NCBI GenBank assembly: GCA_004298545.1
Contig: SCQX01000138.1
Span: forward strand, 1-34,762
DNA: 34,762 nucleotides
Source of the DNA: Candidimonas sp.
GTDB taxonomy: Bacteria > Pseudomonadota > Gammaproteobacteria > Burkholderiales > Burkholderiaceae_B
Direction: 5' to 3'
Position numbers and translations under genes: made by a program. Of this stretch, positions 2,597-9,736 are shown piece after piece; positions within the stretch are counted from its first letter, which is position 1; the number at the start of each line of letters is the position of its first letter. A model generated the notes under the pieces. It was not told the DNA's origin. It made no database searches and was given only the letters and a program-made list of their open reading frames with translations.

Positions 2597-4858
2597 ATGA
2601 AATTCCGCTTCCCCATCGTCATCATCGACGAAGATTACCGCTCCGAGAATGCCTCGGGGTTTGGCATCCGCGCCCTGGCTGCGGCGCTCGAGGCCGAGGG
2701 CGTCGAAGTGCTGGGGGTGACCAGCTATGGCGATCTCAGCTCGTTCGCGCAGCAGCAGAGCCGCGCGAGCGCGTTCATTCTGTCGATCGACGATGAAGAG
2801 TTCGACGTCGATTCGCCCGAAGACGTGGCGTACGCCATCAAGAATCTGCGCAATTTCATCGGCGAACTGCGTTTTCGCAATGAAGACATCCCCATATATC
2901 TGTATGGCGAAACCCGCACGTCGCAGCACATTCCCAACGATATCCTGCGCGAGCTTCACGGCTTCATTCACATGTTCGAGGACACGCCGGAATTCGTGGC
3001 GCGCCACATCATACGCGAGGCGCGCGCTTATCTCGACGGCCTGGCGCCGCCATTTTTCCGCGAATTGGTCAAATACGCTTCGGATGGCTCCTATTCGTGG
3101 CACTGTCCCGGGCACTCCGGCGGCGTCGCCTTCCTGAAGAGCCCGGTGGGACAGATGTTCCATCAGTTCTTCGGTGAGAACATGCTGCGCGCCGATGTCT
3201 GCAACGCGGTCGACGAACTCGGCCAACTGCTGGATCACACCGGTCCGGTGGCGGAAGCCGAACTCAATGCGGCGCGAATTTTTCATGCCGACCACTGTTT
3301 CTTCGTGACCAATGGCACCTCCACGTCCAACAAGATCGTGTGGCACGCCAACGTTGCCTCGGACGATGTGGTGGTGGTCGATCGCAATTGCCATAAGTCG
3401 ATTCTGCACGCCATCACCATGACGGGCGCCATCCCCGTGTTTCTGCGGCCCACGCGCAACCATCTGGGCATCATCGGGCCCATTCCGCTGGAGGAATTCG
3501 ATCCCGCGAACATCCGCCGCAAGATCGAGGCGAATCCGTTTGCGCGCAAGGTCAAGGACAAACGACCGCGAATCCTCACGCTGACGCAAAGCACGTACGA
3601 TGGCGTGATCTACAACGTAGAGATGATCAAGGAGAAACTGGGCAGCGAGATCGATACGCTGCATTTCGACGAAGCATGGCTTCCCCACGCGGCGTTCCAC
3701 GAGTTCTACACCGACATGCATGCCATCGGCGCCAACCGCCCGCGCAGCAAGGATGCCATCGTGTTCGCCACGCACTCCACACACAAGCTGCTGGCGGGCA
3801 TTTCGCAGGCGTCGCAGATCATCGTGCAGGAGTCGGAGACACGCAAGCTGGACCGCAACGTGTTCAACGAAGCCTACCTGATGCATACCTCCACGTCGCC
3901 GCAGTACGCCATCATCGCGTCGTGCGACGTGGCGGCGGCCATGATGGAGCCGCCCGGCGGCACCGCGCTGGTCGAGGAAAGCATCCGCGAAGCCATGGAT
4001 TTCCGCCGCGCCATGCGCAAGGTGGAATCGGAATACGGCAAGAACGACTGGTGGTTCCGCGTGTGGGGACCGAACCGGCTGCCAAGCGACGGCATCGGCT
4101 ACCGTGAAGACTGGATCCTGGAATCGGGCGACGAGTGGCATGGTTTCGGCGATCTTGCCGAAGGCTTCAACATGCTCGACCCCATCAAGGCAACCGTCAT
4201 CACGCCGGGGCTCGATATTTCGGGCACCTTCGCCGAGACCGGCATTCCGGCGGCGATGGTGACCAAGTTTCTGGCCGAGCACGGCGTGGTGGTGGAGAAA
4301 ACGGGGCTGTATTCGTTTTTCATCCTGTTTACCATCGGCATCACGAAAGGCCGCTGGAACACGCTGTTGACGGCGCTGCAGCAGTTCAAGGATGATTTCG
4401 ACCGCAACCAGCCGATGTGGCGCAGCCTGCCGGAGTTCTGCAAGCAGCATCGCTGCTACGAAAAGCTGGGCTTGCGCGATCTCTGCCAGCAGATCCACCA
4501 GGCTTATCGCAAGCATGACGTGGCGCGCCTGACCACCGAAATGTACCTCAGCGACATGATCCCGGCGATGAAGCCGTCCGACGCCTACGCCAAGATGGCG
4601 CACCGCCAGATCGAACGCGTGGTCGTGGACGAGCTCGAGGGGCGGGTGACGGGGGTGCTGCTGACGCCATACCCTCCCGGCATTCCCTTGTTGATCCCGG
4701 GCGAGCGGTTCAATCAGCGCATCGTGCATTATCTGCAGTTCGCGCGCGAGTTCAACGTTGAATTCCCGGGATTCGAGACCGACATCCACGGATTGGCAAG
4801 CGATACGGCGGCGGATGGCTCGCTCGAATATTACGTCGACTGTGTGCGCGAGGATTGA
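2597..4858 (+). CDS. Biodegradative-type arginine/lysine/ornithine decarboxylase
   Basis: A PLP-dependent Orn/Lys/Arg decarboxylase with the large bacterial architecture: an N-terminal receiver-like wing domain (about residues 1-130), the aspartate-aminotransferase-fold core, and a C-terminal domain. The PLP lysine is Lys397 in THSTHKLLAGISQAS. LHFDEAW carries the Asp that contacts the pyridine nitrogen, and DRNCHKSI is the other conserved core block. The length of 753 residues is closest to E. coli AdiA (about 755) and longer than CadA/LdcC (about 715), so arginine is the best guess, but substrate cannot be decided from sequence by eye. The start is supported by GGAG at 2586-2589, 7 nt before the ATG. 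No antiporter gene (AdiC/CadB type) is adjacent, so a role in polyamine supply is as likely as acid resistance. Downstream comes the glycine-riboswitch leader. Confidence 0.9.
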   Translation: MKFRFPIVIIDEDYRSENASGFGIRALAAALEAEGVEVLGVTSYGDLSSFAQQQSRASAFILSIDDEEFDVDSPEDVAYAIKNLRNFIGELRFRNEDIPIYLYGETRTSQHIPNDILRELHGFIHMFEDTPEFVARHIIREARAYLDGLAPPFFRELVKYASDGSYSWHCPGHSGGVAFLKSPVGQMFHQFFGENMLRADVCNAVDELGQLLDHTGPVAEAELNAARIFHADHCFFVTNGTSTSNKIVWHANVASDDVVVVDRNCHKSILHAITMTGAIPVFLRPTRNHLGIIGPIPLEEFDPANIRRKIEANPFARKVKDKRPRILTLTQSTYDGVIYNVEMIKEKLGSEIDTLHFDEAWLPHAAFHEFYTDMHAIGANRPRSKDAIVFATHSTHKLLAGISQASQIIVQESETRKLDRNVFNEAYLMHTSTSPQYAIIASCDVAAAMMEPPGGTALVEESIREAMDFRRAMRKVESEYGKNDWWFRVWGPNRLPSDGIGYREDWILESGDEWHGFGDLAEGFNMLDPIKATVITPGLDISGTFAETGIPAAMVTKFLAEHGVVVEKTGLYSFFILFTIGITKGRWNTLLTALQQFKDDFDRNQPMWRSLPEFCKQHRCYEKLGLRDLCQQIHQAYRKHDVARLTTEMYLSDMIPAMKPSDAYAKMAHRQIERVVVDELEGRVTGVLLTPYPPGIPLLIPGERFNQRIVHYLQFAREFNVEFPGFETDIHGLASDTAADGSLEYYVDCVRED

Positions 4859-4955
4859 GCGGGTGGAAGCGGCACTGTCGACGCCACGCCCGACGTCGAC
4901 GATACGCGTGGGAATTGGACCCCGCGTCGGGGAAATTCGGCGGGGATGACTCTGT

Positions 4956-4984
4956 TTGGCGTTTGGCGGCTTTCGCGGTATGCT
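4956..4984 (+). promoter_or_regulatory. Candidate promoter of the gcvTHP operon
   Basis: TTGGCG (4956-4961) and TATGCT (4979-4984) are separated by 17 bp and each matches the sigma-70 consensus at four of six positions. The predicted start of transcription, near 4991, falls about 15 nt before the first conserved base of the riboswitch. That position supports the call more than the match itself does. Confidence 0.5.
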
Positions 4985-5005
4985 TTGCGTTGCTGTCGAT
5001 ACACA

Positions 5006-5280
5006 GGGTGGGAGAGTGCCGGTCATCCGGCCGCCGAAGGCGCAATTCGCCCAGAATCGCTCAGGTCCCTGTACCGCCCGTGTGCCGCCGCATAGCGTCG
5101 TGCACTGTCTGGATGGTTCAGTCCATTGAATGACCAAGCCGGACACCAGGGCCTATGTGGCGGGGCGGCTCTCTGGAGAGATTCCGCGGCACCGCACCGG
5201 TGGTGGCCGTGGGCGCCGAAGGTGAATCCTTGCCGCTCGCGCGGTTCAAGGCAACTCTCAGGCAAAAAGGACAGAGGGGC
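5006..5280 (+). promoter_or_regulatory. Tandem glycine riboswitch upstream of gcvT
   Basis: Two glycine-aptamer-like elements precede gcvT. Aptamer 1 spans about 5006-5079: GGGTGG (5006-5011) pairs with CCGCCC (5074-5079, one U-G wobble), GAGAG (5012-5016) faces CGCTC (5058-5062), GCCGG-TCAT-CCGGC forms a hairpin, and the conserved CGCCGAAGG core lies at 5032-5040. Aptamer 2 spans about 5169-5280: CTCTGGAGAG (5171-5180), CGCCGAAGG (5214-5222), ACTCTCAGG (5254-5262), then AAAAGGACAGAGG, all matching the family consensus. The spacer is about 89 nt, much longer than usual. Known members switch on glycine-cleavage genes when glycine binds. No intrinsic terminator follows, so control is probably at translation: ACTC (5292-5295) could pair with GAGT (5321-5324), which overlaps the gcvT ribosome-binding site. 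That last point is weak inference. Confidence 0.88.
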
Positions 5281-5329
5281 GGCGCGGTCAAACTCATGGT
5301 TCCCTCGTTGCCTGTTCCCGGAGTCCTCT

Positions 5330-6424
5330 ATGTCTTCCGCTCTGAAGCATACGCCCCTGCATAGTGTCCACCTCGAATTCGGCGCGCGTCTGGTCGACTT
5401 CGGCGGTTGGGAGATGCCCGTTTCCTACGGATCGCAAATCGAAGAGCATCGCGCCGTTCGCGCGCGCGCGGGCATGTTCGACGTGTCCCACATGCTCAAT
5501 GTCGATCTGACGGGGGCGGGCGCCACCGCGTTCCTGCGGCGTTTGCTTGCCAACGACGTGGCGAAGCTGTCGCAACCCGGCAAAGCACTGTATTCATGCA
5601 TGCTCAATCCCGAAGGCGGGGTGATCGACGACCTGATCGTGTATTTCTTTTCGCCCGAGCGCTGGCGCGCGGTGGTCAATGCGGCGACCGCCGAGAAAGA
5701 CGTCGCCTGGATGCGCCGCGTTGCCGCCGCGGAAGAGTTCGCGGTCGCCATCACCCCCCGGCGCGATCTGGCGATGGTAGCGGTGCAGGGGCCGGCGGCG
5801 CGGGAGGCCGTCTGGGCGGCACGCCCCGCCTGGCAGGCGGCCACCGAGACACTGGCGCCCTTCACCGCCGCGCGGGTCGACGACGACACGCTGGTCGGCC
5901 GTACCGGCTACACGGGAGAGGACGGGTTCGAAATCGTCCTTCCCGGCGTATCGGTCGAGGCGCTATGGCGCGATCTTGCCGGGCACGATGTGAAGCCGTG
6001 TGGCCTGGGCGCGCGCGACACGCTGCGTCTGGAGGCCGGCATGAACCTCTATGGCCAGGATATGGACGAATTGACGCAGCCGTGCGAATCGGGGCTTTCG
6101 TGGACGGTCTCGTTCAAGGATCCAGAGCGCCGCTTCGTTGGCCGCGCCGCCATCGAGGCGACCGGTCGCGGCCACGTTCTGCTGGGGTTGAAGATGCGCG
6201 AACGCGGCATCATGCGGGCGCGCATGCCGGTGCGATCGGCTCGCGGTCCGGGTGAAATCACCAGTGGCACGATGTCGCCCACGTTGGGTGTCTCCATCGC
6301 GTTGGCGCGCCTGCCCACCGGTGTCGGCGTGGGCGATTCGTGCGACGTGGATATCCGCGGCAAGTGGGTTCCTGCCGAAGTCGTCAAGCTGCCGTTCGTT
6401 CGGCACGGCAAAGTACTCGTTTGA
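5330..6424 (+). CDS. gcvT: Aminomethyltransferase, glycine cleavage system T-protein
   Basis: Transfers the aminomethyl group's carbon from the lipoyl arm of the H-protein to tetrahydrofolate, releasing ammonia and 5,10-methylene-THF. At 364 residues it is full length (E. coli 364). Visible family features: [17 protein letters not shown] (18-34), GGVIDDLI with the conserved acidic residues at 100-101, [11 protein letters not shown] (191-201), and [13 protein letters not shown] (225-237). The ATG at 5330 is chosen over longer in-frame alternatives because it begins the conserved SALKHTPLH segment and is preceded by CGGAG at 5319-5323. First gene of gcvT-gcvH-gcvP, directly under the glycine riboswitch, which explains its likely regulation. 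gcvH follows after 29 bases. Confidence 0.97.
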
Positions 6425-6453: not shown

Positions 6454-6825
6454 ATGGGCTTACCAACCGATCGCAAATACACGACGTCGCATGAGTGGGT
6501 CAAGGCCGAGGGCGATGTCTTCCTGGTGGGCATCACCGATGATGCGCAGAGTCAGCTGGGCGACCTGGTGTTCGTGGGCGACTTCAACCCGGGAACGAAA
6601 CTGGCGGCGGGCGCCACCGCCGGGGTGGTCGAATCGGTCAAGGCCGCCTCGGACATCTATGCGCCGATCGCCGGGGAGGTCGTGGCCTTCAACGAGCAGC
6701 TCACGGCGCAGCCCGAACTGATCAATCAGGCTGCTTTCGACACCTGGATTTTCAAACTGCGTGTCGACAATCCCGCCGACGTCGACGGCTTGCTCGACGC
6801 GGCGGCGTACAACGCTCAAAAGTAA
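6454..6825 (+). CDS. gcvH: Glycine cleavage system H-protein
   Basis: The lipoate-carrying shuttle of the glycine cleavage complex, moving the aminomethyl intermediate between P-, T- and L-proteins. The 123-residue length is typical. The N-terminal [10 protein letters not shown] motif (8-17) and the lipoylation site Lys63 in [14 protein letters not shown] are present, as is the GDLVFV strand at 36-41. The start at 6454 gives the usual N-terminus and has AGGA at 6440-6443. Lipoylation would need LipB/LipA or LplA from elsewhere in the genome. gcvP starts 7 bases after the stop, consistent with one transcript. Confidence 0.97.
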
Positions 6826-6832
6826 GGCTGCC

Positions 6833-9736
6833 ATGCTGCGCGATCTCGATCCCCACGACGACTTCATTTCCCGCCACATCGGGCCATCCGCTGCCGACCA
6901 AGAGAAAATGCTGCGCGAAATTGGGCTTGGCGGCATTCAGGAACTGGTCGACGCGGTCGTGCCACACGGCATTCTCATGGCGGGGCGGTTGAATCTGCCG
7001 TCCGCCCGCGGAGAGGCCGAGGCGCTGGCCGACTTGCGCGCGATGGCGTCGCACAACCAGGTGTTTCGCAGCTACATTGGCCAGGGCTACTACGGCACGC
7101 ACGTGCCGAACGTGATTCTGCGCAATATTCTCGAGAATCCGGCGTGGTACACGGCGTACACGCCGTATCAGCCGGAAATCTCGCAGGGGCGGCTCGAAGC
7201 CTTGTTGACGTTCCAGACCATGGTCGCCGACCTCACCGGCCTCGACATCGCCAACGCGTCGCTGCTCGACGAAGCCACCGCGGCGGCGGAGGCCATGGCG
7301 TTGGCCCGCCGCAGTTCGCGCACCGAATCCAGGGTCTTCTTCGCGTCGAAACACTGTCATCCGCAAACGCTCGAGGTATTGCGCACCCGTGCGGCGGGCG
7401 TCGATATCGACGTCGTCGTGGGCGACGAGGCCGCGCGCCTGCCCGATTGTTTTGGCGTGCTGCTGCAATATCCCCACAGCCTGGGCGGCCTGGGCGATTA
7501 CCGCAAGCTGGTTGAAACCGCGCACGAACGGGGGGCCGTGGTGGCCGTCGCCACCGATCTCCTCGCGCTGGCGCTACTGACGCCGCCGGGCGAATGGGGG
7601 GCGGATATCGCGGTGGGATCAGCCCAGCGGTTCGGGGTTCCCCTGGGCTTTGGCGGCCCGCACGCGGGTTTCATGGCGTGCCGCGATGCATTCAAGCGAC
7701 ATTTGCCGGGCCGTCTGGTGGGGGTATCGCGCGACAGCGGTGGCGAGTACGCGCTGCGGCTCGCGTTGCAAACGCGCGAACAGCATATCCGGCGCGAGAA
7801 GGCCACCTCGAACATCTGCACCGCGCAAGTGTTGCTGGCGGTCATGGCCGCCATGTACGCGGTCTGGCACGGCCCGCAGGGCGTGGTGCGGATTGCACGC
7901 CGGGTGGCCATGCTGGCGGCGCTGTTCGCTGAGACCATGCGCGGCATGGGGTTGCCGGTCGTCAATGACACGTTTTTCGATACCGTGCTGCTCGCCACGG
8001 GAGAACGTACGCGCGCGGTACTCGAGGCGAGCCGCGCCGCCCGCATCAATCTGCGCCAGGTGGGGGCCGACTACGTGGCGGTGTCGTTCGATGAAACCGT
8101 GGGTACCGATGATCTGGTTCAGCTGGCCGAAGTATTCGCCGTCGCCCTGCGCGCACCGTTCGACGGCGCGGCGCTGGCGCGCGCGGATGTTCCGGAACCG
8201 GCGATTCCTGCCGTCCTGCGGCGCGCGTCGCCCGTGTTGTCGCACCCGGTGTTCTCGCGCGTGCGTTCCGAAACCGACATGTTGCGTTATCTGCGCGGCC
8301 TGGCCGACAAAGATCTGGCGCTGGATCGCACGATGATCCCGCTGGGCTCGTGCACCATGAAACTCAATGCCACAGCCGAGATGATTCCCATCACGTGGCC
8401 GGAATTCGCAGACCTCCACCCGTTCGCCCCCGCGTCGCAAAGCCGCGGCTATCGTGAACTCATCGAGCATCTGTCGGCGGCGCTGTGCGAAATCACCGGG
8501 TACGCGGCAATCAGCCTGCAACCCAATTCCGGCGCCCAGGGAGAGTTCGCCGGGCTGATGGCCATTCGCGGCTATCACCGCGCCAACGGGCAGAGTCAGC
8601 GCGACGTCTGCCTCATTCCAGCATCGGCGCACGGCACCAATCCGGCCTCCGCGCAGATGGCGGGCATGAACGTGGTCGTGGTGGCCTCCGACGAGCGCGG
8701 CAGCATCGATCTGGCAGATTTGAAAGCGAAGATCGCCAGCGTGGGTGATCGTCTGGCGGCGTTGATGCTGACCTATCCCTCCACGCATGGCGTGTTCGAG
8801 TCGGCGGTCGTGGAAGTCTGCGATCTGATCCACGGGGCGGGCGGACAGGTCTATCTGGATGGCGCCAACATGAACGCCATGGTGGGGCTGGCACAGCCAG
8901 GCCGGTTCGGTTCCGATGTTTCACACCTGAACCTGCACAAAACGTTCTGCATTCCGCACGGTGGCGGCGGACCCGGTGTCGGGCCGGTGGCCGTGCGCGC
9001 GCATCTGGCGCCGTATCTGCCGGGTTGCGTAAACGAGTTCGGGCGCCTGCCGGCGGGCACGCCCGCAGGCCCGGTGTCGGCGGCGCCCTATGGCTCCGCG
9101 GGCATTCTGCCCATTCCGTATCTGTACATTTTGATGATGGGGGCCGACGGCCTCAAGCGGGCGTCCGAAGTGGCGATGCTCAACGCCAATTACGTCGCCC
9201 ACCGCCTGCGCCGGCATTACCCGATTCTGTATGCCGACGCCGACGGGCGGGTGGCGCACGAATGCATTCTGGATATCCGGCCCATCAAGGACGCCTGCGG
9301 AATCTCCAACGAAGACATTGCGAAGCGGCTGATCGATTTTGGCTTTCACGCGCCAACGATGAGCTTTCCGGTGCCAGGCACTCTGATGGTCGAGCCCACG
9401 GAATCGGAAGGCCTGGCCGAACTGGACCGTTTCGTGGATGCCATGATTGCCATTCGCGGCGAGATCGCACAAGTGGAAAGTGGCCGCTGGGATGCGGGAG
9501 ACAATGTCTTGAAGAACGCGCCGCATACCGCGGCCATGCTGCTGGCCGGGGACTGGAACCACGGCTATGCGCGCGCCGCGGCGGCGTATCCGCTGCCCGG
9601 CGTGCGGGCAAACAAGTATTGGCCGCCGGTCGCGCGCGTGGACAACGCTTACGGCGATCGCAATCTGGTGTGTTCATGCCCTCCCGTTGAAGACTACGTG
9701 GCCGTGGCCGACGCACTGGCGGAGCCGTCCGCCTGA
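6833..9736 (+). CDS. gcvP: Glycine dehydrogenase (decarboxylating), P-protein
   Basis: The PLP-dependent decarboxylase of the glycine cleavage system: it removes CO2 from glycine and loads the aminomethyl group onto lipoyl-GcvH. At 967 residues it is the fused single-chain form (E. coli 957), with both the regulatory N-terminal half and the catalytic C-terminal half. The PLP lysine is Lys703 in [28 protein letters not shown] lies about 200 residues before it, and the N-terminal [10 protein letters not shown] start is conserved. The ATG at 6833 has AAGG at 6824-6827 overlapping the gcvH stop. It ends 7 bases before the stop of the convergent gene dadA, with no terminator visible between them. 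The lipoamide dehydrogenase (L-protein) gene is not in the window; it is usually shared with other dehydrogenases. Confidence 0.97.

Follow-up and report, generated by a model that had tools for sequence, protein, structure and literature searches.

A tandem glycine riboswitch of gcvTHP in Candidimonas with a predicted three-way junction at the position of the leader-linker kink-turn

Two glycine aptamers upstream of gcvT

The window, i.e., the whole stretch of 34,762 nucleotides of Candidimonas sp. DNA that was analysed, carries the genes of the glycine cleavage system in the order gcvT-gcvH-gcvP. The first of them, gcvT (aminomethyltransferase), lies at 5330–6424 on the forward strand (PF01571, E 1.3e-81), and Pfam placed gcvH at 6454–6825 and gcvP within the open reading frame at 6761–9736. 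Upstream of gcvT, the glycine riboswitch model of Rfam (RF00504) matched twice on the forward strand, at 4999–5086 (aptamer 1; 56.2 bits, E 3.6e-09) and at 5163–5284 (aptamer 2; 43 bits, E 1.1e-05), and both matches exceeded the curated cut-off of 32 bits. Together with the Pfam match of GcvT, they confirmed the preliminary description of this DNA, which had placed two glycine aptamers before the gene. No other Rfam family reached its gathering score in the whole window, no third glycine-aptamer match was found in the same genome at E 0.001, and the linker showed no sign of a third, degenerate aptamer in the scan at the gathering threshold, which returned two matches only. As in tandem switches, two aptamers thus precede a glycine gene at this locus, with what is probably a single expression platform after them; a singlet with a ghost aptamer would have only one ligand-binding aptamer, and here two matches score above the cut-off. 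An Orn/Lys/Arg decarboxylase gene (2597–4858, same strand) lies directly upstream of the riboswitch.

Helix P1 of aptamer 1 is formed by 5000–5011 and 5074–5084, with A5005 bulged. The wide spacing of the aptamers held (~89 nt in the preliminary description), and we measured ~80 nt between the P1 helices and 76 nt between the ends of the Rfam matches. It had been allowed that a covariance-model scan might place aptamer 1 elsewhere with a short linker, which was not the outcome. Nor is aptamer 2 the canonical one of the pair, as had been supposed, given that aptamer 1 outscored it by 13 bits and that its P2 and P3b arms are longer than in the RF00504 model.

For comparison we used the family to which the genome of the window belongs. 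The best gcvT matches included named members of Achromobacter, Candidimonas, Paralcaligenes, and Allopusillimonas, and we infer an Alcaligenaceae-type family of Burkholderiales. Glycine aptamers were detected in 219 of its 250 genomes. We read 110 gcvT leaders of the family, 109 of which gave an aptamer pair (L224, without a pair, was left out). The leader alignment comprised 78 of these 109, after 84 had been picked with a per-genus limit and six of g38 had been left out.

The alignment bears on an A-G mismatch (A5015 against G5059) that had been proposed in a GAGAG/CGCTC helix of aptamer 1. This helix does not exist in the Rfam structure, where GAGAG (5012–5016) is a single-stranded junction and CGCTC is part of P3. 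The partner of G5059 is C5041, in P3a, and this pair was kept in 78/78 aligned leaders, as were its neighbors G5040-C5060 and G5042-C5058. When compared with the Rfam consensus, which has a and u at these positions, C5041-G5059 is a compensated change and not a mismatch. Both A5015, a junction residue, and G5059 are invariant columns of the alignment. Aptamer 1 therefore has an intact P3a and conserved junction residues, and its core is nearly invariant across the 78 leaders, which represent 24 genera.

A linker hairpin and a predicted three-way junction

The linker between the aptamers (5080–5170) folded with -47 kcal/mol (z -4.1; 0/200 shuffles as good). Most of it forms a long hairpin, PL (5085–5163, forward strand), whose closing helix (5085–5095/5153–5163) had pair probabilities of 0.99–1.0. 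That the linker can form hairpins had been recognized previously, and this part of the claim stands; the particular TGGA/TCCA hairpin is absent from the minimum free energy (MFE) fold, in which its bases lie in the apical part of the longer hairpin. In the unconstrained MFE fold of 4990–5172, PL is the third arm of a compact three-way junction together with P1 and with a helix, P0, between the leader and the end of the linker. The 5′ strand of P0 (GCUGUC, 4992–4997) pairs with GGCGGC (5164–5169), which stands directly before aptamer 2 and is supported by the predicted fold as well as by P0 pairing in the 78 leaders (both strands are on the forward strand). Mean pair probabilities were 0.996 for P0, 0.84 for P1, and 0.999 for the closing helix of PL. 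The predicted junction has two, zero, and zero unpaired bases: GA (4998–4999) is free on the leader strand, and PL directly abuts both P1 and P0.

The leader-linker helix P0 was thus predicted here, although not in every fold. When aptamer 2 was included (4990–5300), a different global MFE structure was obtained, without P0 and with an alternative register of P1, at an energy that was unremarkable (z -1.2; 11/100 shuffles as good). The energy of the folds alone does not settle the junction, and a comparative argument is needed.

Two further features of the sequence were noted. The segment ACAGGG (5003–5008) can pair perfectly with CCCUGU (5067–5072), downstream of the aptamer 1 CTCAGG, and this is the pairing preferred in the fold of 4990–5300; it could reflect either chance or a second state of the switch. 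The gcvT frame has no stop codon between a TTG at 5126, inside the linker, and its ATG, so that it also runs across aptamer 2, and the open stretch (5126–5329) is probably a chance occurrence in GC-rich DNA.

Recurrence of the junction among relatives

We called a junction when P0 (at least 4 pairs), P1 (at least 5), and PL (at least 4) occurred all together in the MFE fold. Folds of the true sequences gave a junction in 92/109 family leaders, from 23 of 25 genera, and constructs reduced to the junction (aptamer 1 core replaced by A8) also gave 92/109. This count depended on the settings: with a 40-nt leader and a mis-set P1 edge it was 45/109, P0 of the window being missed, and it rose to 92/109 with the leader shortened to 29 nt and the P1 edge corrected, both of which were done after the lower count had been seen. 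The leader was cut to 29 nt because a -10-like hexamer puts the RNA start near 4990. Mononucleotide shuffling of parts of the constructs (10 rounds) lowered the count to 35 ± 3 of 109 for the P0 part of the leader, 39 ± 4 for the P0 3′ hexamer, and 47 ± 5 for the linker insert. The commonest junction (18/92) had 2, 0, and 0 unpaired bases, which is also that of the window.

No junction was found by MFE in 17/109 family leaders. Three of these belong to g38, whose six loci have a mis-set leader start and gave a junction in 1/6 as constructs and 3/6 as true sequences. We also considered 80 named gcvT loci, some of which duplicate family loci (by linker, L035 equals L230 and L059 equals L146); 36 had an aptamer pair and 44 did not. 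The junction was predicted in five of the 36, namely in Achromobacter, Candidimonas, Paralcaligenes, Allopusillimonas, and an unclassified proteobacterium (L068).

These predictions refine the earlier suggestion of a new architecture at this locus. The long linker does appear as a structured third arm in a junction with the leader, but that design is common to the 92 leaders and hence not private to the window; only the length of the arm is peculiar to this locus, and the junction design, to judge from the folds, is lineage-wide.

Comparative support for P0

Across the 78 aligned leaders, 89.5% of P0 cells were paired, as against 68.5% in the best slid register, and the covariation score of P0 was greater than that of every slid register. 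Two-sided changes occurred in 16 cells, compared with 6.5 ± 2 in column shuffles (0/500 as high), a kind of count that relatedness among the leaders inflates. Counted by pairs, two-sided changes were seen in 3/6, a number reached by 67/500 shuffles and by 3/6 slid registers. Examples of changed helices are GCCGUC/GGCGGU (g30), GCUUU/AAGGC (g40), and AUCUAC/GUAGGU (g24; folded as P0 in the constructs only, not in the true-sequence fold).

The native duplex of leader and linker was better than that of shuffled leaders in 102/109 cases. Swapping leaders between genera did not lower the energy of P0 (native -9.2 and swapped -8.9 kcal/mol, p 0.69), an uninformative outcome because the P0 sequence is itself conserved. 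RNAalifold on the 78-leader alignment returned neither P0 nor PL, the arm being unalignable, and P0 pairing was afterwards counted as a named structure. Taken together, alignment and folds suggest good support for the pairing of P0 and moderate to modest support for its covariation, the latter only modest because the leader swap showed nothing and the count of 3/6 pairs is unremarkable.

Length and variability of the linker arm

Measured from the CTCAGG of aptamer 1 to the GAGAG of aptamer 2, the linker was 44–110 nt long in the 109 family leaders, with a median of 60 nt. (L209 and L034 were entered at 76 nt, where another annotation version, and for L209 also the alignment, gives 57, which hardly touches the median and extremes.) The linker of the window was the longest (110 nt), followed by 107 and 97 nt. 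A linker of the same length in all close relatives, which would have spoken against anything unusual at this locus, was therefore not what we observed. The additional length of PL could be compared across the family but not within the genus, because the collection holds one genome of the genus.

Inserts of the linker folded better than mononucleotide shuffles on average (mean z -2.5; 61/101 below -2), including that of the window (z -2.2), and that of L245 was no better than shuffles (z +0.4). The PL arm could not be aligned in the leader alignment. It looks like a tolerant site, with a tip that is apparently under little constraint in length and sequence. At the other end of the range, 14 of the 36 named loci with an aptamer pair had a linker of 28–32 nt (Rhodocyclaceae, Polynucleobacter, Nitrosomonadales, gammaproteobacteria, and others), and a linker hairpin was predicted in 0/14. 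The comparison of linkers, made without a tree, suggests that a short linker gained an arm.

Expression platform and proposed mechanism

A -10-like hexamer, TATGCT, was found at 4979–4984 on the forward strand, and T4979, A4980, and T4984 were each present in at least 90% of the 78 leaders; a scan for consensus promoters gave 0 sites. Given the hexamer, transcription would start near 4990, and P0 would lie at the very 5′ end of the RNA. The gcvT Shine-Dalgarno sequence GGAG is located at 5320–5323 (forward strand), and a count by eye gave GGAG shortly upstream of the ATG in 25/30 aligned rows, among them that of the window. A putative anti-Shine-Dalgarno strand, ACUCUCAGGCA, lies within aptamer 2 (5254–5264, forward strand) and could pair with the ribosome binding site of gcvT if the aptamer were unfolded. 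In the MFE fold of 5236–5345, ACUCU (5254–5258) pairs with GGAGU (5320–5324) and CAGGCA (5259–5264) with UGCCUG (5309–5314), with an energy no better than that of shuffles (z 0.40). No terminator-like site was found by a scan of 4860–5340, linker included, and a terminator in the linker was rejected accordingly. The pairing of aptamer 2 with the Shine-Dalgarno sequence, the parallel with Neisseria (PMC13104608), and the lack of a terminator-like site in the scan together suggest a translational ON switch.

Computation yielded the two aptamers, the predicted helices P0 and PL, and the recurrence of the junction in the family, and from these a mechanism can be proposed. The 5′ end of the RNA would pair with the last six bases of the linker to form P0, so that P0, the P1 of aptamer 1, and the long PL would close a three-way junction with GA (4998–4999) unpaired on the leader strand. 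This junction would take the place of the leader-linker kink-turn and bring the effective length of the 80-nt linker down to nearly zero. It may set the angle between the aptamers such that they can dock, a three-dimensional role that we propose by extension from the predicted helices. Binding of glycine would then stabilize the docked pair, and aptamer 2 would retain its CUCUCAGG strand, which otherwise would pair with the Shine-Dalgarno sequence of gcvT. Translation of the glycine-cleavage operon would presumably increase once the Shine-Dalgarno sequence is freed. We consider it probable that gcvTHP is preceded by an intact tandem glycine riboswitch that acts as a translational ON switch and has a three-way junction in place of the leader-linker kink-turn.

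Alternative explanations

A first alternative, which extends one of the readings first offered, is that aptamer 1 is decaying, the linker is a drifting spacer, and aptamer 2 is the sole glycine sensor. Decay from tandem to singlet is a described route (PMC6944388), and the gap in the window is the largest among the 109 family leaders, but aptamer 1 is the higher-scoring aptamer, the 78 leaders from 24 genera have almost the same aptamer 1 core, the fold of the linker is far better than that of shuffles, and the same report names aptamer 1 as the conserved one in the gcv switches of Bacilli. With the RF00504 score, the conservation of the core, and the kept C5041-G5059 pair, decay of aptamer 1 was rejected, and a singlet switch is hardly credible. 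Only slightly better placed, and still very unlikely, are two independent consecutive glycine riboswitches with the linker hairpin as the expression platform of the first. One published survey counts aptamers as tandem only when they are less than 20 nt apart (PMC12452182), against 76 nt here, and the gcvT frame that is open to the TTG at 5126 reaches into the linker; against this, the scan of 4860–5340 gave no terminator-like site, no ORF of at least 100 aa is confined between the aptamers, and for most relatives the folds predict P0, between the leader and the 3′ end of the linker.

Two other possibilities accept the tandem switch and concern the nature of the junction and of its arm. The junction could be a k-junction proper, i.e., a kink-turn with PL inserted in the non-bulged strand and its tandem G.A pairs kept. 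The topology is the same as that of the TPP-riboswitch k-junction (PMC4005666), and the leader bases at 4998–4999 are GA, yet the linker strand has no unpaired base at P1/PL or PL/P0, which leaves the G and A without partners unless helix ends open, and the leader junction bases are not GA in many relatives; we regard this as unlikely. The additional PL length in the window could also stem from a repeat or mobile palindrome that recently entered a shorter, pre-existing hairpin. This has a precedent in the family: the 107-nt gcvT linker of one genome (G024, locus L212) holds the palindrome GGGGTCAGACCCC, present in 870 + 882 copies in that genome and in 0 copies in the congener G058, which has a 56-nt linker. 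As its sequence reads, a repeat has landed inside the riboswitch arm of G024, where the P0/P1/PL junction was still predicted, with a non-canonical aptamer 1 core in the true-sequence fold. For the window, a search of the same genome gave no second copy of the insert and nothing beyond a match of 20 bases (E 0.67), in an assembly of 339 contigs from which repeats may be missing. The window linker had some match at E ≤1 in 179/250 family genomes, but among the matches listed there were only short stretches besides the window itself (the best of 30 bases, E 1.6e-4, in one genome), and those of the five best-matching genomes listed lie away from gcvT. An insertion is thus an outside chance for the window, if the best placed of these alternatives.

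Relation to known junctions and tandem switches

P0 has been reported in >90% of tandem glycine switches, and when the leader-linker P0/kink-turn was disrupted, B. subtilis lost regulation and the V. cholerae switch bound glycine with lower affinity (PMC5666159). Similar to the gcvT and ON tandem switches of V. cholerae and B. subtilis, the switch in the window has two aptamers, apparently one expression platform, and a predicted P0, before gcvT. It differs in that the internal-loop kink-turn of those switches is replaced by a 79-nt hairpin in the linker and a predicted three-way junction. A kink-turn would need tandem G.A pairs between P0 and P1, and the predicted fold leaves no base of the linker strand unpaired. 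The k-junction of the TPP riboswitch is described as a kink-turn that has an additional, third helix in its non-bulged strand, and it is defined by G.A and A.G pairs 3′ of the loop (PMC4005666). The predicted folds share the topology, with a third helix inserted opposite the bulged strand of the would-be kink-turn, whereas no tandem G.A pairs can be drawn in the window, which has 2, 0, and 0 unpaired bases. We therefore filed the junction neither as a kink-turn nor as a k-junction, because no linker-strand bases are free for G.A pairs; it may nonetheless work like either of them.

The gcvT tandem of N. gonorrhoeae (PMC13104608) is likewise located before gcvT without a terminator, and it is a translational ON switch in which a segment of aptamer 2 masks the ribosome binding site, as established by experiment there and proposed by analogy here. 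P0 and the kink-turn are reported as apparently absent there, as opposed to the predicted P0 and linker hairpin of the window. An extra hairpin also adjoins the glycine aptamer in singlets with a ghost aptamer, but PL stands between two complete aptamers.

The decay and mismatch that were first posed are unsupported. No description of a linker hairpin closing a three-way junction with P0 was found in the literature searched, which the primary kink-turn papers lay outside, and priority is uncertain. A broader reading, to which we give an even chance, is that the whole family swapped the kink-turn for a three-way junction, the third arm of which is a fast-evolving hairpin that absorbs insertions, even repeat palindromes, with the switch unbroken. 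The arm itself may also adjust how the aptamers are angled, or serve as a binding site for a protein or small RNA. If the broader reading is true, surveys that require a short linker would overlook tandem switches with a long hairpin linker or break them up; the 20-nt distance cut-off of one recent survey (PMC12452182) would file them as separate riboswitches. A natural family that keeps P0 without the kink-turn would show the real task of the element, which would be to hold the leader and set the angle, and it offers natural variants with differing arm lengths.

Linker hairpins were also predicted in other genera. Eleven named loci of Burkholderia, Paraburkholderia, Trinickia, Massilia, and related genera (L038, L040, L041, L043, L046–L049, L051, L056, and L090) have gaps of 50–80 nt, and a linker hairpin was predicted in 11/11 and P0 in 0/11 with a 24-nt leader; these loci perhaps have the hairpin without P0. 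In Uliginosibacterium (L045), the gap between the two glycine aptamers is 152 nt, with 119 nt between the Rfam matches, and this is perhaps an independent long linker.
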